Part shown: positions 3,611 to 15,395 of the stretch, piece after piece
How positions within the stretch are numbered: position 1 is the stretch's first letter
Layout: the number at the start of each line of letters is the position of its first letter
Virus record (IMG/VR): IMGVR_UViG_3300042473_000195
Span: 1 to 26,337 of that record
Origin: a virus
DNA length: 26,337 nt
Reading direction: 5' to 3' (one strand)
The notes under the pieces: model-generated
Database searches by the model: none
What the model saw: the letters and a program-made list of their open reading frames with translations, nothing else
Told to the model about the DNA's origin: nothing
Position numbers and translations under genes: made by a program

Positions 3611-3898
3611 TTAGTTACCCGGAATCTTAATCATTGGGGTCGATGCAACAGCGGCAAGCGGGTCAGGTCTATTAGACATATAGCCAGAAACGCCCTTCAG
3701 GAGCGCGTTTCCAAAGCCTGCCGCCGCCGAAGGCATGGCGTGGATGCCCTTATAGGCGGTGGTTTCCAAACCACTGTCGCCCTGGGCCTGAAGCAAAGCG
3801 GCCAATTTCATGGCCTTAGCTTGGTCTTCCGGCGTGGATGGGGCGGTCAGGGATGTCTTAATGCTTTCCCACCAAGGCTTTTCGTCAGGTTCAGCCAT
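3611..3898 (-). CDS. Small paralogue of the 493-aa protein's N-terminus (95 aa)
   Basis: The product opens MAEPDEKPWWESIKTSL and then carries KLAALLQAQG...TAYKGIHAMPS...AGFGNALL...YM. This lines up with residues about 40-95 of the next gene's product: KLA-LL--QG, YKGI-A-PS, G-G-AL and YM match in order and with nearly the same spacing. It then ends after a short tail, so it looks like a stand-alone copy of that module rather than a truncated gene: it has its own start and stop. It overlaps the CysH-like gene's end by 8 bases and sits one base before the 493-aa gene. Likely a small virion or virion-assembly protein; the exact role is unknown. Confidence 0.7.
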   Translation of the reverse strand: MAEPDEKPWWESIKTSLTAPSTPEDQAKAMKLAALLQAQGDSGLETTAYKGIHAMPSAAAGFGNALLKGVSGYMSNRPDPLAAVASTPMIKIPGN

Positions 3899-4586
3899 TG
3901 AAAGCCTCCAATATCTTCATAGATGGAGCCAGCGCCGACTTCAAATCGGCCATGTTGACTGCATATTTAGCATAAAATTCAGGGTATTTCAGCTTTGTCC
4001 AAGCCACACGGTCAGCCGACTGGCCCAAATAGGCGGTGCAATCATAGCAATCTAGGCTCGTGTGCTTGATGGCATAGTGGTCAGGTAAAGCGGCCCGGTG
4101 CTGGAGGATGAACGCGAAGACCTGCTCCGCCGTCCATGTTTCCAAGGGCTGGACGAAGGTAATGCCATCGACAATTGAGCCGTCCACAGCAGTAGATTTA
4201 TGGTCTTCGTCTAGCCGCTGGCCGCGCACCAGGCTGGTAATCCCACGGTCTTTAGCCGCCTTGAGCAGCGGAACGGCTATATTCTCATGGCAGCAGCTAA
4301 AATATGTCTGGATTTTGACCGGCTTAGGACCAGTCATGGTCATACCAAACACCGTCCAATCGACGGGAACGACATCAGACGGGATGCCAGTCCGCTCAAT
4401 CTGGGCTTGCTGGTCAGACGGTATTTCAATGAATTCTTTGGCTTCTGCCTTTATTTCGTTAACGATTGCAATGGTTTCCGGGTAAGCCTTGCCGGTATTG
4501 ACCCACAGAACGACAGGCTGCTGCTCGCGGTACATATACCAGCAAGCCAGCGAGTCTTTACCGCCTGAGAAAGCCAATCCTAGCAT
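3891..4586 (-). CDS. PAPS/APS-reductase-like PP-loop protein (231 aa)
   Basis: The N-terminus has the PP-loop SGGKDS (residues 7-12), which binds the nucleotide phosphates in the adenine-nucleotide alpha-hydrolase fold of CysH, CysD and DndC-type proteins. VNTGKAYPE (29-37) and the PL-x-x-WT signature (147-152) also fit CysH. A Cys pair at 98-99 in SCCHENIAVPL and Cys180-x-x-Cys183 in DCYDCT match the CC...CxxC pattern that holds a 4Fe-4S cluster in assimilatory APS reductases. The C-terminal ECGLH-like motif with the catalytic Cys is absent: the protein ends KILEAFNG. It may therefore bind adenylated substrate and a cluster without doing classical sulphonucleotide reduction. The start overlaps the Gln-rich virion gene's stop (TGATG). 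The family call is firm; substrate and product are unknown. Confidence 0.9.
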   Translation of the reverse strand: MLGLAFSGGKDSLACWYMYREQQPVVLWVNTGKAYPETIAIVNEIKAEAKEFIEIPSDQQAQIERTGIPSDVVPVDWTVFGMTMTGPKPVKIQTYFSCCHENIAVPLLKAAKDRGITSLVRGQRLDEDHKSTAVDGSIVDGITFVQPLETWTAEQVFAFILQHRAALPDHYAIKHTSLDCYDCTAYLGQSADRVAWTKLKYPEFYAKYAVNMADLKSALAPSMKILEAFNG

Positions 4587-6145
4587 CAGAACGCCATACC
4601 TGCCGCACCGGCAACGCTGCCGAGCATACCCATCATGCCCTGATTGTTAGCCGCCGCCTGATTAGCCTGGATACCGTATTGATCCATCGCGGCCTGACCC
4701 TGCTGTTGGACGCCTTGGAAGACGGGCGCAGCCTGAATGTTCTGGCCGGCGTATGACTGGAACTGCGGGGCTTGTATCTGCGACCCGCTCATTAGGGCGC
4801 TGATCTGGTTCAGGGGCTGGTTATACAAGCCAAGCTGTTGAGCAAGGGCTTGCTGAGCAGCCGTATTTCCGAACTGGGCCGCGCCAAGGTTCTGGTTAAA
4901 CTGCTGGGCGGCAGCCTGATTATACAACCCAGCCGAAGCCCCGGCCTGACCGTAATTCTGGCCCATTGCGGCATTGGCTTGGTTCTGCGAACTCATGGCT
5001 TGGCCGTAATTCTGGCCGATAGCTTGGTTCAGAAGCTGCTGGGAACTCATGCCCTGCCCATAGTTCTGGGCAATGGCCTGATTGCGAGCTTGGTTGGCCT
5101 GTAAGCCCTGCCCAAAGTTCTGGCCGATAGCCTGATTGCCCATCTGCCGCGCTTGGGCGGCCTGACCAAAGCCCTGACCCAGAGCGGCATTATACAGCCC
5201 AGCCTGACCCATAGCCTGACCGTAGCCCTGCTGGTTGGCGCTCATGTCAAGGCCAATGCCCTGCAAGGCAGCCTGACTAAGCAGGTCGTTTTGACCCTGC
5301 TGCTGCTCGCGCATGGCGTTGTTCCACGCCTCAGACCCCGGCGTGATGCCCTGATTGGCAAGCTGCTGGGCAGTAGCGGCAGACTGCTGGGCAAGCTGCG
5401 GCTGGAGGCGGTTCATAATGGCCTGTTGACCTGTCATGCCCGCATTGACCGGCATTCTAGCCACCCCGGACATATCCGCGCCGGTCCTTAGATTGCCGTA
5501 CTGGTCGGCATTGACGCCCTGCGCCTGACCATAAGCCCCGGCGTCCACGCCCTGCGCCATGCCATACTGACCAGCCCCAACGCTCCCAGCCTGACCATAC
5601 GCGCCGGGGGCAACGCTACCAGCCATGCCGTACTGGCCCATGGCAGGTCCATAATTGACCGGCATCTGCTGGCCAAGAGAAGTCTGGATTTCAGGGCCTC
5701 TGTATTGGAAAGGCGTACCCATGACGTTCTGGGCAGTCGTAATGCCCTGCTGGCCTAGATCGGCAAGGCTGCGCTGAACGCGCTGCTGAGATTCAAGCGT
5801 TCTCTGCGCTTCAGGCGTCAGCGTCTGGGTGACGGTAGGCTGCATATCGCCAGCCGTCGTAAACTGTGAAATATCAGGTGCCGCGCCTTGATCTATGGCA
5901 TTGCCATACTCGTCCCGCTGGCCCTGCTGGTTTTGATAGTTCTGCATGGCCTGGTCATAGCCAGCCTGATCTACCTTTTTAGACTGGTTATATGTAACCG
6001 TCTGATTGCCATACGGGCTGATGATATTAGGGTTGCTGAGAACTGCGGACTGGCGCGCGGCATCAACATTGGCCGCACCCTGAGCAGTAGCTGCGGCAGC
6101 GTAATTAGGCGCTGCGGGCGGCGGCGGTGCTGAACTTTTTCCCAT
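4586..6145 (-). CDS. Gln/Ala/Gly-rich repeat virion protein (519 aa)
   Basis: The N-terminus MGKSSAPPPPAAPNYAAAA, followed by ISPYGNQTVTYNQ, is one I recognise from tail-region proteins of many podophages, usually of unknown function. Residues 170-224 are five 11-residue units of the type GQYGMAQGVDA. Residues about 236-300 hold a conserved helical stretch with LANQGITPGSEAW. Residues 305-430 are seven consecutive 18-residue units of the type GQNYGQAMSSQNQANAAM. The C-terminus (505-519) is Gly/Met/Ala-rich and hydrophobic. The ATG is preceded by a strong AGGAGA five bases upstream, which fixes the start although it lies 41 bases inside the acetyltransferase gene. Position after the tail hub suggests a tail or ejected protein that contacts DNA or membrane; this is inference. 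Confidence 0.85.
   Translation of the reverse strand: MGKSSAPPPPAAPNYAAAATAQGAANVDAARQSAVLSNPNIISPYGNQTVTYNQSKKVDQAGYDQAMQNYQNQQGQRDEYGNAIDQGAAPDISQFTTAGDMQPTVTQTLTPEAQRTLESQQRVQRSLADLGQQGITTAQNVMGTPFQYRGPEIQTSLGQQMPVNYGPAMGQYGMAGSVAPGAYGQAGSVGAGQYGMAQGVDAGAYGQAQGVNADQYGNLRTGADMSGVARMPVNAGMTGQQAIMNRLQPQLAQQSAATAQQLANQGITPGSEAWNNAMREQQQGQNDLLSQAALQGIGLDMSANQQGYGQAMGQAGLYNAALGQGFGQAAQARQMGNQAIGQNFGQGLQANQARNQAIAQNYGQGMSSQQLLNQAIGQNYGQAMSSQNQANAAMGQNYGQAGASAGLYNQAAAQQFNQNLGAAQFGNTAAQQALAQQLGLYNQPLNQISALMSGSQIQAPQFQSYAGQNIQAAPVFQGVQQQGQAAMDQYGIQANQAAANNQGMMGMLGSVAGAAGMAF
4856..5233 (-). repeat. Seven tandem 54-bp units encoding an 18-residue repeat
   Basis: Within the 519-aa virion protein, residues 305-430 divide into seven in-register units of exactly 18 residues, each starting [GA]Q[NQG][FY][GN]Q and most ending N-x-A-x. 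The DNA copies have diverged, so the selection appears to be on the protein pattern. Eighteen residues is five turns of an ideal alpha helix, so each unit would present the same face. Confidence 0.85.
5474..5638 (-). repeat. Five tandem 33-bp units encoding an 11-residue repeat
   Basis: Residues 170-224 of the 519-aa protein are five consecutive 11-residue units: GQYGMAGSVAP, GAYGQAGSVGA, GQYGMAQGVDA, GAYGQAQGVNA and DQYGNLRTGAD. Odd and even copies alternate QYGM and AYGQ, suggesting duplication of a 22-residue pair. Confidence 0.85.
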
Positions 6146-6548
6146 AACGATCTCCTAAAAACCTGCAATACGCTTTTTTAAGCGTATAAATTACTATGTC
6201 ACCTTCGGGGCTTGCGTCGGCTATTCTGCCTTCTTCCGCAAACCCCATTTTTTCAACCAATTTCATACTCTTTGCGTTTGTACTTCCGACTGGCAATATC
6301 ACCTTATCGACATTGCAAACGTTGTAGGCGTAGTCAAAAACCGCTCCAAGATAGGCTGGCGTCAAACGCCCTTCGATGCCCATGTGAGCCATAATTGATC
6401 GGCCATTCCAGTTCTCGTACAATACTCCCGCAATAATCTTGCCGTCTTTTACTAATCCAATAGCGGTATCACCTTCGTGATAGACGCCATTAATTTTCTC
6501 AGCCACCCATCTTCCGATGTGCGGCCCGCTAACTATACGCCCGCCCAT
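6105..6548 (-). CDS. GNAT-family N-acetyltransferase (147 aa)
   Basis: The product matches the small GNAT acetyltransferases common in phage tail operons: IVSGPHIGRWVAEK at the N-terminus, AIGLVKDGKIIAGVLYENWNGRSIMAH (residues 29-55) as the central strands, YNVCNVDKVILPVGSTNAKSMKLVEKMGF (75-103) containing the Asn and the helix that contact acetyl-CoA in this fold, and a last strand DIVIYTL. The start is ATG at 6548, which overlaps the end of the gp10-like gene by 16 bases; an upstream ATG at 6656 would overlap by 124 bases and add non-family sequence. The 3' end overlaps the Gln-rich protein gene by 41 bases. The acceptor substrate is unknown; a virion or host-surface target is possible but not shown. 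Confidence 0.85.
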   Translation of the reverse strand: MGGRIVSGPHIGRWVAEKINGVYHEGDTAIGLVKDGKIIAGVLYENWNGRSIMAHMGIEGRLTPAYLGAVFDYAYNVCNVDKVILPVGSTNAKSMKLVEKMGFAEEGRIADASPEGDIVIYTLKKAYCRFLGDRYGKKFSTAAARSA

Positions 6549-8089
6549 CCGGTTTGATACACCACATCTGTTGAAGCCCATTGTATCTGGATGCCGCTGC
6601 TCGCCGTCTTCATCTGTAGACCGCCACAATAGCCGATGCCCGTAATGCCCAGCCATGTGTTCTGGATCGCCAAGTCAGCGCCCCACAGGGCCGTGTCCCA
6701 AGTGCTTGTCGCCGCATCCCAGATGCCGTAGGACGAGCCTGTAAATGTTACAGGGGCCGTGGTATCGGACGTATCGAAGTCAATATTCATGCCCATGCCA
6801 ATGGTCGGATTGCCATTGCTGAAGATGCTTGGCCTGGCGCGGGTAAAATACTTCTTGACGCCGCGAGCGCCTAGATAGTTGAACGCCTGGAGCGTGGTTG
6901 TTGTGATATTGCTGGTGTCATCTATGTACGCATCATCCCAGGCATGGCCGACATAGCCATCTGAGCCAAAATAAGGCTCTTCGCCAAGCGTTTCCCAGCA
7001 ATATGCTGCCCAGCCTATAAATTGGCACCAAGACTTTGTGATGGTGTTCATAACGTACTGCTGCTGCTGGCCGTCAGCCACTGGGACGTTGATCCAGACA
7101 GCGTTAAACTTGGCAGTGGCATAAATCTGCCATCCGACATCAGCGTGGCTTCCGCCATATTGGGTTGTCGCCGCCGTAATCGCGCCCTGTATCTTGTCAG
7201 ACAGGGCAACACGGGGGTCTAGGCGGCTGGATTGCAGCGATGCGGCAAAGGGCATCAAGCCGTCATATGTCAGTACCAACAGGTCGCCGCCCCATTTGAG
7301 CATGGAACGGGCGCTAACTGGCGATCCCATGTTCCAAACGCCAATCAGGGACCATGTGGCCGCGCTGGCCGGGTCGGTGCCGCGAAAGACAACAATTTCG
7401 CCTTCGCTGGTAATAAAGGCAATGTTGTCATCAACACCATAGCCAGCGTCAAGCGTCCAAGTGTCCAGATCAACTAAGCGACCACCAAGGCGGCAAATAG
7501 AACTCATGTCGATATATTGAGCCGCGCCGCCAATTGAGCTAGTTGGCAAATACCAGGCTTTCAGCGTGTTTTTCTCAATAAACCAAACACGGTTCTTGAA
7601 CAGCGTGATATTGGACAGATTGTTGTCGGTCACGCCCGTAATGGTCGGGTTTGACCAAGTGGTGCCATTGTATAGCAGGGCGTCATCAACGCCATTAACG
7701 GCCATAATGTAGCTGCCGCCAGCCGTAGTGATGTTGATGTATTCCCAGATACCGTTGGTCAAGCCAGTGACAACCGGGGAGCCAACAGCCCCCGTTGCAG
7801 TCACATCATAAATTTTGCCCGTACTAGTGACGGCAAACATCTTTGACGTTGCGCCGCCGTTGTAGACCATGATGGTCTGGGCTTTGCCATCAAGGCCAGT
7901 GGCGTGTTTGAAATAGCCGCCCCGCATAGTCAGGCTGCTGACTGTCGGGAACATATTGATGAGCGTTACTGCGTCTGTAGGCTCCATGTTGGCAAGGCTG
8001 TCACGCGCGTTCCAACCGCCCAACGGGGCAGGCAGCGACTGCACTTGAGCCGCTGTACCTTGGACCATGGCGCGTGTGCTAATTGCCAT
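6533..8089 (-). CDS. Tail hub/stopper protein, P22 gp10-like (518 aa)
   Basis: The protein is beta-rich throughout, with repeated short strands separated by turns such as NGIWEYINITTAGGSYIMAVNG, KNRVWFIEKNTLKAWYLP and GDLLVLTYDGLMPFA. This pattern is typical of the beta-propeller-like DNA-stabilisation/hub proteins represented by P22 gp10 (472 residues). The N-terminus (PLGGWNARDSLANMEPTDAVTLINMFP) is the conserved opening of this family. It follows directly after, and overlaps by 11 bases, the gp4-like adaptor, matching the gp4-gp10 order of P22-type phages. The C-terminus holds a tryptophan-rich segment, GIWDAATSTWDTALWG. It should sit at the bottom of the portal channel and join the adaptor ring to the distal tail. 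Confidence 0.85.
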   Translation of the reverse strand: MAISTRAMVQGTAAQVQSLPAPLGGWNARDSLANMEPTDAVTLINMFPTVSSLTMRGGYFKHATGLDGKAQTIMVYNGGATSKMFAVTSTGKIYDVTATGAVGSPVVTGLTNGIWEYINITTAGGSYIMAVNGVDDALLYNGTTWSNPTITGVTDNNLSNITLFKNRVWFIEKNTLKAWYLPTSSIGGAAQYIDMSSICRLGGRLVDLDTWTLDAGYGVDDNIAFITSEGEIVVFRGTDPASAATWSLIGVWNMGSPVSARSMLKWGGDLLVLTYDGLMPFAASLQSSRLDPRVALSDKIQGAITAATTQYGGSHADVGWQIYATAKFNAVWINVPVADGQQQQYVMNTITKSWCQFIGWAAYCWETLGEEPYFGSDGYVGHAWDDAYIDDTSNITTTTLQAFNYLGARGVKKYFTRARPSIFSNGNPTIGMGMNIDFDTSDTTAPVTFTGSSYGIWDAATSTWDTALWGADLAIQNTWLGITGIGYCGGLQMKTASSGIQIQWASTDVVYQTGWAGV

Positions 8090-8987
8090 AACCGCTATCC
8101 GGGATATTGTCCCATCCGATCAGCACGGAACCTGGGCGCGGGGCGAATGACAGATTAGCCGACGATGTGTCTTGGGCTACGGAAGTGTCAAATTCAACCA
8201 TGTAGTCGCGGTAGAGCGCAGTTGTGTCGAAGCCCTTGGCTTGGAAGTACTTAAGTTTCGTGGACAGGACCATAACGCGGTCAGGGTAAATGCAGGTATC
8301 AGTGTCAACCGTGAAGCTATTCTTCACATCGCCATTGGCTGCCTTCGCCCAACCCTTGCTACGGTACTCAAAGCCCAGATTTTCATTGTTTGAATAACCC
8401 GGCCAAATTTGGAAATAGCTACCCAACAAGCGCCAACGGATACGCGGGCCGGTGCTAATAAAGCCGCTGAGAAGCCATTCCCACTGCTGGGCGCTTTCCG
8501 GGCCAAGCATTTCCCAATGCTTGCTCTTGTCCCACTGTGTACGCGGCACGATGCTGTCATAGTCAGACGGCAGGTCGTACTTGACCTTCTGGAAATAGAT
8601 CGTGCCAGCGGTAACGGCGCTGGTCGAGTAAGCCGAGACTGTGACCTGCGTACCAGAATCCACGCTGGTGATGAACGTGGCATTGGGAAAGCCAGTGCCA
8701 ACGACCATATAAGTCGTGTCCAACCCAGCCGTGGACGGGATGTTGGTAATGGTCAGCGCGGTAGTCGTGTAGTCGCCCGTTGTAGTCACATATTCCGTAA
8801 AGAAGCTGTACGGAATGGTAAGTTCGCGCCAATCGGCCTTACGCAGCAATTCGTACCCAGAAGCGTTCATCAACGCAAGAATCTGGATAACGTCTTGGTT
8901 CGTATTTCCCGCAACCGTTGTCGGTGTAGGGACGCCTAGTTCATTGGTGACCTGCTGCACCAACTGAAGCATCGTCGTACTGGACAT
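8079..8987 (-). CDS. Head-to-tail adaptor, P22 gp4-like (302 aa)
   Basis: The N-terminal helices, LQLVQQVTNELGVP...DVIQILALMNASGYELLRKADW, are the signature of gp4-type/tail-accessory adaptors that dock under the portal. After about residue 65 comes a Thr/Ser-rich beta segment (about 68-140, including FPNATFITSVDSGTQVTVSAYS), then the conserved YDLPSDYDSIVPRTQWD region and a C-terminal alpha/beta part ending in GWDNIPDSGYGN. P22 gp4 is 166 residues, so this protein is larger, mainly because of the beta insert. The start at 8987 is supported by AAGGAAG six bases upstream, even though it overlaps the 191-aa gene by 47 bases. It connects portal and hub and helps retain packaged DNA. Confidence 0.85.
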   Translation of the reverse strand: MSSTTMLQLVQQVTNELGVPTPTTVAGNTNQDVIQILALMNASGYELLRKADWRELTIPYSFFTEYVTTTGDYTTTALTITNIPSTAGLDTTYMVVGTGFPNATFITSVDSGTQVTVSAYSTSAVTAGTIYFQKVKYDLPSDYDSIVPRTQWDKSKHWEMLGPESAQQWEWLLSGFISTGPRIRWRLLGSYFQIWPGYSNNENLGFEYRSKGWAKAANGDVKNSFTVDTDTCIYPDRVMVLSTKLKYFQAKGFDTTALYRDYMVEFDTSVAQDTSSANLSFAPRPGSVLIGWDNIPDSGYGN

Positions 8988-9516
8988 CTACATCTTCCTT
9001 GCGTGGCCGACCCGGCTTGCGCTGGGACATGAGCAAAGCCATTTGGGCTTTCAGCTCATCCAATTCGCTACGGGTCTTTGCCAATTCAGAACTACTTTCG
9101 GAATGATTCTTCTGCGTAAGGTAATCCCTTGCGCGCTCGCGAAGTCCGACGGCACCCATGCCAATACGCTGCAATTGGGCGTCCGTAGCCGTCGCAACCT
9201 GCTCGACGGTCTGGAACTTCAGAATCTGCAATTCTGCCATCTGGTGGTCATTGAGATCATTGGGGGCGTCATTGTTCCAATCGGTCAACTTTGTGCCGAT
9301 AATCTGGCCGTCGTCGTTCTTGGACTGGAAATAAAGCCACTGACGAATAAACCGTTCCTTGTGATATTCCCGAACGGGCTGCTCAATGATGTTAGTCTTA
9401 TCGCCAGGCACCATGATCCTCACAAAAGGCACATCCTTAAATGGAGCCTTATCATGCACATAGAACTCAACGTGCAGGTGAGAATCGGCGTTAGCAATAT
9501 CGCTATCCAAAGGCAT
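8941..9516 (-). CDS. Conserved head/structural protein of unknown role (191 aa)
   Basis: Residues 1-90 are alpha/beta with a conserved-looking block HVEFYVHDKAPFKDVPFVRIMVPGDKT. The centre contains KFQTVEQVATATDAQLQRIG, which resembles a helical linker. Residues about 140-165 (SSSELAKTRSELDELKAQMALL) form a short coiled coil. A basic patch, RKPGRPRKEDVD, follows at about 167-178 and looks like an AT-hook-type GRP core. It lies between a small head protein and the gp4-like adaptor and overlaps the latter by 47 bases. Position and composition suggest a virion or assembly protein that may touch DNA; I do not recognise a named family. Confidence 0.75.
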   Translation of the reverse strand: MPLDSDIANADSHLHVEFYVHDKAPFKDVPFVRIMVPGDKTNIIEQPVREYHKERFIRQWLYFQSKNDDGQIIGTKLTDWNNDAPNDLNDHQMAELQILKFQTVEQVATATDAQLQRIGMGAVGLRERARDYLTQKNHSESSSELAKTRSELDELKAQMALLMSQRKPGRPRKEDVDVQYDDASVGAAGHQ

Positions 9517-9526
9517 AAATTACTCC

Positions 9527-9910
9527 TTACGTGGAAGACAGGGCCGCAGTAACAGCCCAGGTGGTGGCGGAAGTGCCAAAGCAGATTGCAGTCTTGGTAT
9601 TGCCCAGAGCAACACCAGTCGAGCCAGCAACGGCGGCATTCATGGTGACGCCGCTGGTTTCGTTGGTGTAAATCTGCAGCGTCTGACCGCTCAGATTATA
9701 GATAAAGACAACCGCGCCAGCTTCGCAGGGCGGCAGCTTCAATCCAGTAGAGGCTGACGATGTGGTAATGGCATTAAAAACAGCCGAAAGCTGCAGAGCA
9801 GTCGCCTGATTGGTGCCAACCGCAACAAGACCAGTCGCGCCGTCGCCAGCGATGGAAATGGTCGCCAGCGGGGAATTGCCAGAGGCCAGGATGCGTGAAG
9901 GAATAGCCAT
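9527..9910 (-). CDS. Small structural protein, beta-rich (127 aa)
   Basis: The product is Ala/Thr/Gly-rich with repeated beta strands: TISIAGDGATGLVAVGTNQATALQLSA, GAVVFIYNLSGQTLQIYTN and TKTAICFGTSATTWAVTAAL. This pattern is widespread in small phage head or fibre-like structural proteins. The gene is separated by 11 bases from the upstream DUF115-methyltransferase gene and by 10 from the downstream 191-aa gene, so it belongs to the same transcript. There is no enzymatic motif. A decoration or head-fibre role is possible; the sequence alone does not decide. Confidence 0.75.
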   Translation of the reverse strand: MAIPSRILASGNSPLATISIAGDGATGLVAVGTNQATALQLSAVFNAITTSSASTGLKLPPCEAGAVVFIYNLSGQTLQIYTNETSGVTMNAAVAGSTGVALGNTKTAICFGTSATTWAVTAALSST

Positions 9911-9921
9911 GATTTGGTCCT

Positions 9922-11268
9922 TTATTTAGGGTTTTGAACGTAAAACGTGGCATACGGACAGGCATCGCCATTATCCGAATGCTCGTACTCAATGTGATAA
10001 GCGGAAAATTTCTCTTGCCACCATTCGCTAGGAAACACGGATAGATGAAGCGGGTGACCGATCAGCTTTCCCATACTATCGTCAAATAGGGCTATTTTGA
10101 AATAGCAGCTATCAACGCAATCCATAATATTTTGAATAACATCAGGCACATCCCCCGGCGGGATATGCTCCATAACGTCCGTGCAGTAGCCAATATTGCC
10201 GCTGACGCCGATAGGCTTGGTCAGGTCGGCCACCGTAAAGGGCAGATTATTGCCTTCGTCCCGACAATTATCAGCAAAATCAACGAGTTGCACTTCGCAG
10301 CGAGTCAGATCGGCAATTTTCTTGCCGCCCCTGCCCGTGCCGCAGCCAAAATCAACGATCACATCCGTCAGCCTGGGGTCGGCAATTTCGATAAAATGCT
10401 CCGCAAACGACTCGCCGGGGGCGACTTCCCGGTAAAGCGGGGTCTGCCACATGGCTTCGTATTTCTGGACTTCTGACATGGCCGGGGGCGGCTCAGACAT
10501 GGCTTTGGCGATGGCCGGAAGCAGCCCGTGGCCGTGGACCTGGATAACCGCGTCTTCGTCCGCAAGCTGCTGGGCGGCGGTCTGAAACTCCATGGCTTGG
10601 CGGGCCATCCAAGGGGTCGAGATGTATTCCTTGCCGCCCACCCAATAGCTTTCGCGCGGGTCGGCAGCATTGGCCGCTTGCTCATAGGCATGGCCGTCGC
10701 CAGCCTTGGAATAGCTGGAATCAAAGCCGTACAGGTGAATATTCCGATAACCCATGGCAAAGGCGATGCTCATGGCCTGAAGGCCCACAGTCGTACCGCC
10801 GCCGATCAGGGCGCAAAGACGATCACCAATATAGTCCTGAATGCCTGGGTAAGCCGGGTGCCACAGGGTAACGTCATGGCCGCCCAGGGCATCAAACACG
10901 CCCTGGCTGCACTGGGACGCGATAAGGTACTTGGTGGCCTTATTCGGGTGAACAAAGCCCTGATTGTGCGCTCTGGCGTCCAAAAGCACAAAATAGTCCG
11001 GGGTCACATCAACGCTGGCTAGGGTCGGAATTGTGCCATTTACGGCAAAAATTGCCTGTCCAGCCGCCTTGTGACCGGCAATCATGGGGAGCAGGGGCTT
11101 CATAGAAGGCCCGCCCCCCACAATCACAGCTACCCCGTCGTGCGGCTCAGAAAGCTGCAACCACGGAAGATCACGAGCAACGGCAGCAGTTATGTTGCCG
11201 AAAATCTCGTGATCCTCCGTGTTGCACACGATAGGAATCGTATCATCTAAATTAGACGGTACGATCAT
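9922..11268 (-). CDS. DUF115-like (Maf/MptE-type) domain fused to a class I SAM-dependent methyltransferase (448 aa)
   Basis: Residues about 45-250 match DUF115/MptE-like proteins: VAVIVGGGPSM (46-56), the strand FAVNG (74-78), YFVLLDARA (92-100), GGGTTVGLQAM (156-166) and NIHLYGFDSSY (176-186). This fold is related to sialyltransferase-like GT-A/Rossmann enzymes and occurs in flagellin-glycosylating Maf proteins and in the pterin enzyme MptE. Residues about 275-448 form a class I methyltransferase: VDFGCGTGRG (305-314, the SAM-binding glycine loop), LVDFADN (328-334), and DVMEHIP (364-370). Its start overlaps the decoration gene's stop by one base (TAATG), so it is translated together with head proteins. 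Both domains appear intact. Acceptors are unknown; glycosylation or methylation of virion proteins, or of a small molecule, are possibilities. Confidence 0.88.
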   Translation of the reverse strand: MIVPSNLDDTIPIVCNTEDHEIFGNITAAVARDLPWLQLSEPHDGVAVIVGGGPSMKPLLPMIAGHKAAGQAIFAVNGTIPTLASVDVTPDYFVLLDARAHNQGFVHPNKATKYLIASQCSQGVFDALGGHDVTLWHPAYPGIQDYIGDRLCALIGGGTTVGLQAMSIAFAMGYRNIHLYGFDSSYSKAGDGHAYEQAANAADPRESYWVGGKEYISTPWMARQAMEFQTAAQQLADEDAVIQVHGHGLLPAIAKAMSEPPPAMSEVQKYEAMWQTPLYREVAPGESFAEHFIEIADPRLTDVIVDFGCGTGRGGKKIADLTRCEVQLVDFADNCRDEGNNLPFTVADLTKPIGVSGNIGYCTDVMEHIPPGDVPDVIQNIMDCVDSCYFKIALFDDSMGKLIGHPLHLSVFPSEWWQEKFSAYHIEYEHSDNGDACPYATFYVQNPK

Positions 11269-11813
11269 TAGGCAACGGCACCCTGCAAATGCGGACGGTT
11301 GATCGACACGATAACAGTCGAAACACCCGAAGCCACAGTGGCAAGGTTGGCAGAGCGAGCGCCCAGAACCTGCTTGCCAGACGCAGCGGTGGGCATAACG
11401 CGGCCCACAGTGGCAGACTGGTAAACGGGAACCTGGGCGTTGACGGCAACGGCAGTCTTCTTGACAACCGCGAGGCCGCCAATCTGATACCAGCCGAACA
11501 GACCGGCGGTGTTGGCCGACATTGCAACGGCCACCGGGGTCGCCTGGTTGGCCGTATTGGCCGACAGGGTGGTCTGGTAGGTCGTCGCGTTGTAGGTCAC
11601 AAGCGAGCCAACCACAGTGCTGGCAACGCCAACAAGCAGAATGAACTCGCCTTCGCCGTAGGTCGGGTCAAAAGCCCGCGCCACCATGCCGAGCGTACCC
11701 GGCGGGGTCGGGATAGTCGTAACAACCCCGGCGGGCGAAGTCGTGCTGATGCCGGAGTCAGTATTCGCAATCTGGAGCATACCAGCGCGATTTTCAGTGA
11801 AAGAATAAGCCAT
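11268..11813 (-). CDS. Capsid decoration/cement-type protein (181 aa)
   Basis: The gene directly follows the major capsid gene with a 22-base gap holding GAAGGA. The product has an N-terminal SFTENRAGMLQIANTDSG segment, then beta-rich sequence with GEGEFILLVGVAST, LVTYNATTYQTTL, GLFGWYQIGGLAVVKKT and PVYQSATVGRVMPTAASGKQVLGARSA, ending STVIVSINRP. This is the layout of DUF2190-like decoration proteins, which bind the outer capsid surface and stabilise it. Family membership is inferred from strand pattern and from the position next to the major capsid gene. Confidence 0.75.
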   Translation of the reverse strand: MAYSFTENRAGMLQIANTDSGISTTSPAGVVTTIPTPPGTLGMVARAFDPTYGEGEFILLVGVASTVVGSLVTYNATTYQTTLSANTANQATPVAVAMSANTAGLFGWYQIGGLAVVKKTAVAVNAQVPVYQSATVGRVMPTAASGKQVLGARSANLATVASGVSTVIVSINRPHLQGAVA

Positions 11814-11835: not shown

Positions 11836-12837
11836 TCAGGCTATCAAAACGCCCTGGAACTGCGCACCAGAGCAGGTCAGATTGCCAGCCCAGCCGATCA
11901 GCTTCACGATCGCGTCCTGATTGACCGCCTGACGTTCGCCGCCAATCGGAACAAAGTTGCGAACCGCATGGGGGCGGAACAGCAGATACTTGGTGTTCAG
12001 GAACCACATATGGTTGGCAGTCGCGGCATTGCCGATACCACCGTCAAGCACAACGTCCGACGCCATACCAGCGCCATAATACTTCAGCGAGGCAAAGCCA
12101 GCGCCAGCCATCGACGAACCGGAATCCGAGATGCGCTGGATGGACTGCAACGACTGCAGGTACAGGCGATAGTAGTTGTTGTCGGCAACAATCAGGTCAG
12201 GCTTGTCCGTACCACGGATAAGCTGCACGGCCAGGGCATCCATGTACTGCTGGATGTTCGAGGCAGTAACAGCCGAACCGCCGTTGGTCACACCGGAATA
12301 GGCAACCGACCGCCAGAACGAGAACGACGCGCGGTTGATGCCGCCGTATGTGCCCGTCGAAGGCGAATCAGGAACAGCAGCAGCCAGGCCGGTAATGTTC
12401 TTACCGCTGTTGCCAGTGCCGTCCAGATAGATGTCGCCGCCGATACGGTTCACAAGCTGCGCTTCCGCAACATTCATGCGACCATCTAGCAGGTCGATGA
12501 TGGCTTCCTTGCCGGAGTTCTGGATCATTTCCAGACCGGAAATCGTCACCGCCGAGGCATACTGAGTGATCGAGAACTGAGCACCCGAAATCGGGCTGTT
12601 CTGCGACACGTTCAACACTTCATAGCCAGAATAGCTGTTGGTGTTGTTGGTGCTGTCATCGTTGTACATGATTTCCTGCAGAATGACGTTACCGCCGCTG
12701 AAGGTCTTCACGTTACCGCGATCTTTAAGACGACGAAGCAACGCATTGTTGTTCGTCACGTTATCGGCCAGTTCACCACTGCGGCTCTGAATATTGGTCG
12801 CAATGATGTCACTGATCGAACTATTGGCGAAAGCCAT
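11836..12837 (-). CDS. Major capsid protein (333 aa)
   Basis: The product has the expected length, charge balance and position (immediately after scaffold, before decoration) of a major capsid protein. Notable segments are the N-terminal AFANSSISDIIATNIQSRSGELADNV, a conserved LLRRLKDRGNVKTFSGGNVILQEIMYNDD, the strand block GAQFSITQYASAVTISGLEM, the helix NVAEAQLVNRIGGDIYLDGTGN, and the C-terminal HMWFLNTKYLLFRPHAVRNFVPI. I recognise this as a phage major-capsid family with a predicted HK97-type fold. AAAGGA lies seven bases before the ATG. There is no obvious N-terminal maturation protease site, consistent with use of a separate scaffold and no protease gene in the head cluster. Confidence 0.88.
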   Translation of the reverse strand: MAFANSSISDIIATNIQSRSGELADNVTNNNALLRRLKDRGNVKTFSGGNVILQEIMYNDDSTNNTNSYSGYEVLNVSQNSPISGAQFSITQYASAVTISGLEMIQNSGKEAIIDLLDGRMNVAEAQLVNRIGGDIYLDGTGNSGKNITGLAAAVPDSPSTGTYGGINRASFSFWRSVAYSGVTNGGSAVTASNIQQYMDALAVQLIRGTDKPDLIVADNNYYRLYLQSLQSIQRISDSGSSMAGAGFASLKYYGAGMASDVVLDGGIGNAATANHMWFLNTKYLLFRPHAVRNFVPIGGERQAVNQDAIVKLIGWAGNLTCSGAQFQGVLIA

Positions 12838-13850: not shown

Positions 13851-14200
13851 CGTCTCCTAAGTTGGTCTAAAACTCTATCGCAGTCCCTGTCGGAAACATT
13901 CCAAAGCTGTTCCCGTAAAACCTTAATGCGCTTTTCCCTAGACACTTGAACCGGCTTGGGGGCTTCCATCTTTTCGTTGCCCACTTCAAAACAATTATGC
14001 CGACGCAAATGCTCTCTATGCTGAGAGCGCGAAGTAATCATACTGCCGTCCACCATGCTCTTATATGGTTGAATGTCAAGCATTATTTGGTGCTTTGCTT
14101 TGCTAGTCTTTCCGAATTCTTCACGGACCCATACGAGTTCTTCGTTTTCGTATTCAGCCAGCAAGCCTTTTCTGTCGTATATTGCTCTGTATTTGCTCAT
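13847..14200 (-). CDS. Conserved small phage protein upstream of scaffold (117 aa)
   Basis: The product contains a compact conserved block, MLDIQPYKSMVDGSMITSRSQHREHLRRHNCFEVGNE (residues about 40-76), that I recognise as recurring just before scaffold genes in several podophage genomes. The C-terminus is a basic helix (SREKRIKVLREQLW...RDCDRVLDQLRRR). The gene overlaps both neighbours by ATGA junctions, so its expression is tied to the 245-aa protein and the scaffold. His56, His59, His64 and Cys66 could bind a metal, but spacing does not match a named finger. Function unknown. Confidence 0.75.
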   Translation of the reverse strand: MSKYRAIYDRKGLLAEYENEELVWVREEFGKTSKAKHQIMLDIQPYKSMVDGSMITSRSQHREHLRRHNCFEVGNEKMEAPKPVQVSREKRIKVLREQLWNVSDRDCDRVLDQLRRR

Positions 14201-14934
14201 AGAAGTACCATTAAATCTTCATCTTCCATTTCTAAATATTCGTTCCAAAGACGCTCAGTGCGGTCTAAGTCATTAATTAGCTTATCAAAATCTATGCTGG
14301 GTAATGACTTGCCGGTCTTTTTGCTAGACTTGGCTTTTACTTCAAACCCAGCCGTGAGTTCTTTAGCTAGGGCTGGCTTGCCTTCAACAATACGCTCATA
14401 CGCCGCAATAACATCGTCACGCTTGCGCTTAAGCCGTTGATTTTCCTTGTCAAACCGCTTCTTTAGCTTCTTGTGATAGTCGCCGTCATGGGTGTCATCG
14501 ACAATGATAATTGGGGCTGGGACGTAGATTACGTTGCCAGCCGTGCCGGTGGCCCCTACGCCAGTCAGGTCAAACGATATGCCGCCGTGGCTAACCGTGC
14601 CGACTTGCCCTGTGGCCTGGACGCCAGTCAGGGCAATGGTGGTCCCGCTGCTTTCGGTGCCGACTTGGCCCGTGGCTTGGACGCCAGTCAGGGCTATTGT
14701 GGTGCTGGGTGTAACGCTCCCTGCGGCCCCTGTGGCGGCATTCCCGGTCAGGGCGGTGTCTTCGGACGGGGTTTGTGTCCCTACCGCCCCAGTGGCCTGT
14801 ACGCCTGTCAGGGCAACGGTACGCGCACCTACGCCTACGCTGCCGGGTGATCCCGTAGCAGCGTTGCCCGTAATTGGGAGGCTATCCCAAAGGGCGCTAT
14901 CCCATGTGCCTGTGTCCCATGGACCCTGCGCCAT
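14197..14934 (-). CDS. Structural protein with WD-type N-terminus and six 20-residue Gly/Thr repeats (245 aa)
   Basis: Residues 6-17 read WDTGTWDSALWD, a W-D spaced every five residues, an opening seen in a number of phage virion proteins. Residues 20-139 hold six copies of a unit close to ALTGVQATGQVGT plus a variable Ser/Thr spacer; the inner four are exactly 20 residues. Residues about 140-245 switch to a charged helical domain (KKLKKRFDKENQRLKRKRDD...) likely to be coiled coil. The gene lies five bases after the 151-aa gene and overlaps the 117-aa gene by ATGA. A surface or head-associated structural role is likely. Confidence 0.78.
   Translation of the reverse strand: MAQGPWDTGTWDSALWDSLPITGNAATGSPGSVGVGARTVALTGVQATGAVGTQTPSEDTALTGNAATGAAGSVTPSTTIALTGVQATGQVGTESSGTTIALTGVQATGQVGTVSHGGISFDLTGVGATGTAGNVIYVPAPIIIVDDTHDGDYHKKLKKRFDKENQRLKRKRDDVIAAYERIVEGKPALAKELTAGFEVKAKSSKKTGKSLPSIDFDKLINDLDRTERLWNEYLEMEDEDLMVLL
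14518..14877 (-). repeat. Six tandem ~60-bp units encoding the LTGVQATG repeat
   Basis: In the 245-aa protein, residues 20-139 divide into six units that start with the core [AP][LI]TG-x-x-ATG. DNA of neighbouring copies is very similar (for example ACGCCAGTCAGGGC recurs), suggesting recent expansion or conversion. The two end copies are the most diverged. Confidence 0.88.
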
Positions 14935-14939
14935 AGGAG

Positions 14940-15395
14940 TTAAGCAATGCGGATAAGGGCGTTCGTCGCGTCACTAACTGGCATGGTCAGGGTAAACGTC
15001 CCGGCTGTCACAGTCTGCGAGCCAAAGGTATGGGCCGAAATGGCTTTATTGCTCTGGGTCGAGTTGTAAATCAGAACGCAATCAAAGGCCGTGGTCAGCG
15101 TGACAGTCGTGTAGGTCAGGCTGGCTGAAGGCGTCCAATAGCCAGTCGTGCCGCTAGTCGTGGGGTCCGTGGCATTTGTGACAGTAACGCCGCCAGCCGA
15201 GTATCCCGCGCCAGAGACTTCGCCGCTTACAGTATAAGCCGTGGTGGCCGCGTTGATCGTGGCTGAGGCTAGGTACAGCGCGGCCTTGAGCGTGTCCGCC
15301 CCCGTGCCAGCCCGAATGACAGTCGTACCAAGGGCGTGAATGCCAGAAAGAATCTCGCCCTTGAAGGACGTACACATTGCTTGAGTGTTGCTCAC
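14940..15395 (-). CDS. Conserved beta-rich structural protein (151 aa)
   Basis: The N-terminus MCTSFKGEILSGIHAL, followed by LKAALYLASATINAATTAYT, GEVSGAGYSAGGVTVTNA, FDCVLIYNSTQSNKAISAHTFGSQT and GTFTLTMPVSDATNALIRIA, is a pattern I recognise as a small conserved virion protein in many tailed phages. It is Thr/Ala/Gly-rich and should be mostly beta. The ATG overlaps the 62-aa gene's stop (ATGA). A head-decoration or collar-type role is likely but not proven by the sequence. Confidence 0.8.
   Translation of the reverse strand: MSNTQAMCTSFKGEILSGIHALGTTVIRAGTGADTLKAALYLASATINAATTAYTVSGEVSGAGYSAGGVTVTNATDPTTSGTTGYWTPSASLTYTTVTLTTAFDCVLIYNSTQSNKAISAHTFGSQTVTAGTFTLTMPVSDATNALIRIA

Follow-up and report, generated by a model that had tools for sequence, protein, structure and literature searches.

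A gene on the minus strand of a 26,337-nucleotide stretch of viral DNA (IMG/VR record IMGVR_UViG_3300042473_000195, positions 1 to 26,337; hereafter the window) fuses a DUF115 domain to a class I S-adenosylmethionine (SAM) methyltransferase, and we propose that its product is a two-step enzyme that would chemically decorate the phage's own particle. This predicted role in virion glycosylation and methylation, which a reading of the sequence alone had raised, proved the best supported, and we regard it as probable: the DUF115 half is more similar to the flagellin transferase Maf than to a pterin enzyme, glycosyltransferases occur in the same slot in relatives, and the pair of enzymes recurs in head modules with five further major capsid protein (MCP) families. 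The genomic context strongly supports glycosylation of a virion protein with methyl capping. Covalent sugar coats on phage particles have been documented for a few phages only, and such coats, as reported for mycobacteriophages, can shield virions from antibodies. The window record is linear, 26 kb long and possibly a fragment. The features at and around the fusion gene are as follows.

9922-11268, minus strand: DUF115 (MptE-like/Maf-like)-class I SAM methyltransferase fusion, 448 residues (open reading frame, Pfam, PHROGs, AlphaFold, Foldseek, viral relatives)
10495-11268, minus strand: DUF115/Maf-like half, residues 1-258 (PF01973, E 9.7e-20; profile comparison with 5mu5 and 8sd5; invariant columns)
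9925-10473, minus strand: class I SAM methyltransferase half, residues 266-448 (phrog_24759; Foldseek; invariant columns)
11266-11270, minus strand: TAATG translational-coupling junction, decoration stop and fusion start (sequence; 36 related loci)
11268-11813, minus strand: putative capsid decoration (cement) protein, 181 residues, candidate acceptor (phrog_29386; AlphaFold; Foldseek)

The fusion gene and its upstream neighbour

The open reading frame (ORF) begins with an ATG at 11268 and its stop codon ends at 9922; on the plus strand, stop codons close all of 9922-11268 and leave no open frame. The sequence-only reading had placed the ORF here, without naming a strand, and had seen two domains on one chain, which PF01973 together with the phrog_24759 and Foldseek methyltransferase matches confirm. 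PF01973 (MptE-like/DUF115) covers residues 46-188 and passes the Pfam cut-off; conserved in this half are GGGPS (51-55), D97, GGGTTVG (156-162), GxDSS (181-185) and H193, and its invariant columns include G53-P54-S55, D97, G162 and G181-x-D183. Pfam matches the methyltransferase half only weakly (Methyltransf_25, E 5e-4, under the cut-off); this half is matched over residues 275-423 by the methyltransferase family phrog_24759 in PHROGs (E 9e-10) and, in a Foldseek search of the PDB, by TehB, PEAMT and ChlM (E of about 1e-8 to 1e-9). It contains motif I (DFGCGTGRGG, 306-315), D330 and CTDVMEH (362-368), with D306-x-G308, G310-x-G312, D330, C362, D364 and E367-H368 among its invariant columns. 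A Rossmann fold, a glycine-rich motif I and the acidic D330 after strand 2 place it among the class I SAM methyltransferases.

Two IMG/VR scans returned 247 and 402 stretches matching the fusion. Locus sets were the best-scoring 80 per scan, IMG/VR loci (given here by L numbers) carry no host assignment, and ORFs in fetched loci came from simple longest-ORF calling. A survey of phages for the fusion and its neighbours had been suggested from the sequence alone; in these relatives the position after the decoration gene is kept. Against relatives 81-92% identical, the ratio of nonsynonymous to synonymous substitution rates (dN/dS) was 0.06-0.12 overall, and dN was far below dS in each half of the fusion separately. 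Given these relatives and this dN/dS, the fusion is more than a chance ORF, and its motifs are under purifying selection. The AlphaFold model has a mean predicted local distance difference test score (pLDDT) of 90.2 and a predicted template modelling score of 0.67, and BFVD contains predicted homologues from uncultured phages, named MptE-like.

The 181-residue product of the upstream gene matches phrog_29386, a virion structural protein family (E 2e-28), and is predicted to be all-beta (AlphaFold mean pLDDT 80). Its best Foldseek matches in the PDB are a capsid chain of Pam3, capsid chains of HFTV1, XM1 and Sf11, the TW1 capsid-stabilising protein and the base of phi29 gp8.5, among which only the Pam3 chain has E < 0.001. 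Because the best PDB folds for this all-beta model are phage cement or decoration proteins, the name decoration gene, already used in the sequence-only reading, is reasonable for 11268-11813. At the junction the bases read CC TAA TG ATC; the fusion ATG and the decoration stop do overlap by one base, as had been noted before, and 36 related loci retain the resulting TAATG, which others have lost.

Relationship of the DUF115 half to Maf and MptE

Strong similarity of domain 1 to a pterin enzyme, which the sequence-only reading had named as evidence against its own proposal, was looked for and not found: the family profile matches Maf of Magnetospirillum (5mu5) with E 1e-13 and MptE (8sd5), the archaeal 6-hydroxymethylpterin diphosphokinase, with E 7e-5. 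Moreover, the MptE segment DLDGD aligns to LDARA in the fusion, and the DLDG-type acidic segment, which we take to be catalytic in MptE, is not kept. Structure prediction, also proposed earlier as a check, agrees with the profiles, in that the predicted fusion matches 5mu5 in the PDB (third Foldseek match, E 2.9e-9), the other listed matches being mainly methyltransferases. Judged from these comparisons, domain 1 is nearer to the flagellin transferase Maf than to the pterin enzyme, and the MptE reading was rejected as clearly weaker in the test against PDB sequences. The sole match in NCBIfam was to the flagellin modification protein PseD (E 4.6e-9), at 35 bits far under the cut-off of 670.

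The DUF115 profile also aligns, over 171 columns, with the profile of the annotated phage alpha-2,3-sialyltransferase family phrog_4603 (hhalign probability 96%, E 1.5e-9), and the two are homologous. The DUF115 domain of Maf has itself been reported to resemble the sialyltransferase Cst-II, and Maf enzymes use nonulosonic acids activated with cytidine monophosphate (CMP) as donors, moving them to Ser/Thr of flagellin (PMC11339370). A role in defence was rejected, PADLOC giving only a marginal methyltransferase match (E 0.002), and a mention of 'DUF115' in a BREX paper proved to be a prefix match to DUF1156.

Recurrence of the enzyme pair in head modules

Further loci were found by a scan with the methyltransferase half. 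The methyltransferase lies directly after an MCP of phrog_247, together with a sialyltransferase-like gene, in L079 (= MW202621), in the Lysobacter prophage L094 and in L294-L296 and L300; in L320 it belongs to a phrog_1005 head module with a phrog_4603 gene and a sulfotransferase, in L325 it lies between scaffold and MCP, again with a sulfotransferase, and in L305 it forms a fusion with phrog_4603, with a phrog_264 MCP lying downstream. (L079 was left out of the structure-prediction input rows.) Fusions in the reverse order, methyltransferase-DUF115, account for 53 further IMG/VR matches, some cut by contig ends, and for two contigs of metagenome-assembled genomes. Paralogous phrog_644 proteins usually border these fusions on either side, and virion-protein genes are near; one fusion follows a phrog_267 MCP directly (L093) and another comes shortly after a phrog_334 MCP (L255).

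Outside the window's lineage, 32 of the 34 loci with a called methyltransferase ORF have a DUF115/sialyltransferase-like partner, fused or at most three genes away; an MCP is on the same piece in 27 of the 34, and a sulfotransferase in 14. These loci are not independent samples, and recurrence is better measured by the number of MCP families: the pair occurs with six of them (phrog_9953, 247, 1005, 264, 267 and 334). A virion-glycosylation enzyme is expected to be linked in just this way to structural genes of the virion in independent lineages of phages.

A sulfotransferase-like gene (Pfam Sulfotransfer_3) adjoins the methyltransferase in the head modules of L313, L317, L320, L325 and others; the sulfotransferase-like genes in head modules suggest sulfated virion glycans. 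Possibly, a transferase of the DUF115/sialyltransferase superfamily is paired with a single dedicated family of methyltransferases, in many cases along with a sulfotransferase or a further glycosyltransferase, in a general and modular system for virion glycans. Such a system would have been put together time and again next to capsid genes, in many tailed phages that are unrelated, and would build methyl- or sulfate-capped glycans on their capsids; we see a little less than an even chance for this proposal. If it is true, environmental tailed phages would commonly glycosylate their capsids and cap the glycans with methyl or sulfate, and this could be recognised from sequence.

The structural operon and the enzyme slot in relatives

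The phage is an Mx8-like podovirus, because its MCP shares 49-53% identity with its counterparts in Myxococcus phages Mx8 and Mx9, Stenotrophomonas phage BUCT555 and Bradyrhizobium phage ppBjS10J-1. The other features of its structural operon are as follows.

11836-12837, minus strand: major capsid protein of the Mx8 kind (phrog_9953; PHROGs, E 4e-103)
9527-9910, minus strand: Ser/Thr-rich 127-residue protein of unknown function, directly downstream of the fusion (ORF)
8941-9516, minus strand: structural-module protein (phrog_20268), position of Mx8 p50 (PHROGs, synteny with Mx8)
8079-8987, minus strand: tail/connector protein (phrog_6013), position of Mx8 p51 (PHROGs)
6533-8089, minus strand: p52-like structural-module protein (PHROGs label 'amidase'; the gene at the same position in relatives is annotated 'phage stabilization' or 'head closure')

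In Mx8 and Mx9 the p49-type and p50-type genes adjoin, whereas the window has the fusion and the 127-residue gene between them. The fusion had been placed between decoration and head genes from the sequence alone; the decoration side stands, but on the other side lie the 127-residue gene and then connector/tail genes. Placement between the cement gene and the neck/tail genes is kept across relatives. The 127-residue protein, often duplicated or enlarged to 275-291 residues in relatives, occurs with and without DUF115, and it was rejected as an obligate partner because it is present without DUF115 in L166 and L167.

To describe the slot in relatives, loci were gathered by their capsid protein and not by the fusion gene. 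In this MCP-centred sample the slot holds the DUF115-methyltransferase fusion, DUF115 alone, or nothing. Separate genes come after DUF115 in L169, L172 and L228, some weakly resembling glycosyltransferases and others encoding methyltransferases; L163 has glycosyltransferase-DUF115-Methyltransf_24 on one chain and L194 has DUF115-glycosyltransferase, the extra domains of these two matching the glycosyltransferase family phrog_1962 (E 6e-29 and 7e-31, respectively). Pfam backs the methyltransferases, both Methyltransf_24 in L163 and the separate genes in L169 and L228. Each partner in the slot is an enzyme with a possible part in building or capping a glycan. The DUF115-only subgroup (L169, L172, L189, L228) adjoins a different decoration subtype, and an ORF of about 150 residues between the MCP and decoration genes of L014, L019, L104, L192, L221, L231 and L236 is, by eye, HNH homing endonuclease-like.

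Decoration proteins of the same sample were classed as long (150 residues or more) or short (without the C-terminal half). DUF115 accompanied 30 long proteins and no short one, and was missing beside 2 long and 18 short ones (Fisher p 1e-11, ignoring descent). The C-terminal half of the decoration protein may carry acceptor sites, which we take as a lead. In phages without DUF115 at the slot, no copy elsewhere was found with PF01973, and no PF01973 gene is present anywhere in Mx8, Mx9, BUCT555 or ppBjS10J-1.

A further enzyme gene of the structural module, at 6105-6656 (minus strand), encodes a GNAT-type acetyltransferase (phrog_4470). Its position is kept in the Mx8-kind phages BUCT555, ppBjS10J-1 and MW202489; the positional match in Mx8, p53, was deposited as 'potential holin', and that in Mx9 is named acyl-CoA N-acyltransferase. 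A gene resembling 3'-phosphoadenosine 5'-phosphosulfate reductase (PF01507, E 2e-14) also lies among the structural genes, at 3891-4586 (minus strand). The 151-residue protein encoded at 14940-15395 (minus strand) matches phrog_644, the family that flanks the reverse-order fusions in unrelated phages, and the 245-residue protein encoded at 14197-14934 (minus strand) has repeated 'TGVQATGxVGT' segments, no PHROGs match and a length that varies strongly among relatives.

Proposed mechanism and alternative explanations

In the mechanism that we favour, the Maf-like DUF115 half would transfer an activated sugar to Ser/Thr residues of a protein on the capsid surface. The donor, to judge from Maf and Cst-II, would be a host-made, CMP-activated nonulosonic acid. 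The likeliest acceptor would be the upstream, translationally coupled decoration protein, an assignment that we hold tentatively, at not quite an even chance, followed by the 127-residue protein or the MCP. The fused methyltransferase would then add a methyl cap, taken from SAM, to the sugar or, with lower likelihood, to the protein, and the phage might benefit by masking or altering the surface of its particle.

Several observations weigh against this mechanism. We know of no modified virion for any of these phages. The neighbours of the reverse-order fusions are mainly phrog_644 proteins, a family of unknown function, and not an MCP; in CcrColossus a relative lies outside head modules, after tail genes and before lysis genes, and the methyltransferase relative of HTVC008M lies in a sugar-metabolism cluster. 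The conserved His of the GHAY motif is lost in at least two of the DUF115-only loci, L172 and L228. A long decoration protein occurs without any PF01973 gene in Mx8, Mx9 and others, and the enzyme is therefore dispensable. Moreover, the decoration state changes 7 times on the MCP tree, with few independent switches; an independent-pairs test, which could use 3 pairs and saw none of them point the other way, was not significant, and joint exchange of neighbouring genes would yield the same pattern. As the phylogeny-aware test has too few independent pairs, we do not claim co-evolution of the decoration protein and DUF115.

It seems unlikely to us that the enzyme instead modifies the host surface, adding or capping a sugar on lipopolysaccharide or capsule so as to exclude superinfecting phages or aid release, with the gene merely riding in the late operon. 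The HTVC008M relative among sugar-metabolism genes and a cellular methyltransferase-DUF115 fusion, CA_C2196, in a modified-carbohydrate cluster (PMC4000134) would fit such a role, but in six MCP families the gene recurs directly next to those for MCP, cement, scaffold or connector proteins, and this placement and the translational coupling to the decoration gene argue against it. We consider it equally doubtful that the decoration gene and the enzyme form a swapped head-gene module, exchanged jointly only as neighbours, with another virion target such as the 127-residue protein or the tail. This possibility is consistent with the scarcity of independent switches on the MCP tree and with Mx8, Mx9, L219 and L231, which have a long decoration protein but not the enzyme, whereas the coupling is to the decoration gene specifically and the enzyme adjoins no short-form decoration protein. 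A pterin-type diphosphokinase (the MptE function) or DNA-base modification enzyme, acting with the methyltransferase in small-molecule or nucleotide metabolism to aid replication, would accord with the Pfam name MptE-like and with the hypermodification of DNA by phage glycosyltransferases (cited in PMC12619734), but is very improbable given the far stronger Maf match, the change of DLDGD to LDARA, the sialyltransferase-like proteins among the phage homologues and the location of the gene in a structural operon.

Comparison with known systems

Virion glycosylation (in mycobacteriophages), DUF115 as a protein glycosyltransferase (Maf) and a cellular methyltransferase-DUF115 fusion are already known. 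The literature on DUF115 in phages, on sialyltransferases with capsid genes and on phage sulfotransferases, covered with few papers from subscription journals, yielded no report of the cassette, and within that literature the head-module cassette is apparently undescribed.

By profile and fold, the fusion contains the central Maf_flag10/DUF115 domain of Maf and PseD. It lacks, however, the N-terminal Rossmann-like and C-terminal helical domains of Maf, its DUF115 domain starting near the N-terminus and being followed by the methyltransferase; and Maf goes with flagellin, whereas the fusion gene sits in a phage head operon. MptE has the Pfam family in common with the fusion, but its profile match is much weaker (7e-5) and the genomic context of the fusion is one of capsid genes. 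CA_C2196 of Clostridium acetobutylicum carries both domain types on one chain, a likeness by description and not by sequence; it is, in contrast, a cellular gene in a cluster for modified-carbohydrate biosynthesis (PMC4000134). In mycobacteriophages Che8 and Rita, where phage-encoded glycosyltransferases are implicated, glycans are found on capsid or tail-tube subunits (Freeman et al. 2023, cited in PMC12619734 and PMC11256854), but the accessible parts of these two sources describe no DUF115-methyltransferase fusion.

The 'alpha-2,3-sialyltransferase' family phrog_4603, found in PMG1, D3 and Caulobacter phages, has a domain homologous to the DUF115 half and is fused to the same methyltransferase family in L305, but forms a separate subfamily. 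Tetraselmis viridis virus S20 carries a methyltransferase gene together with two sialyltransferase-like and two glycosyltransferase genes in the interval from the head maturation protease region to head closure. In Pseudomonas phage PMG1 the sialyltransferase-like gene PMG1_0008 lies two positions after the MCP gene and the methyltransferase gene PMG1_00013 after the head-closure gene, although this methyltransferase is of another family (phrog_6564); the layout of D3, judged by its annotation, is like that of PMG1, with Orf7 as the sialyltransferase-like gene. These related layouts in the head/connector module of culturable phages, P. aeruginosa PMG1 and its relative D3, make the question of capsid glycosylation directly testable.
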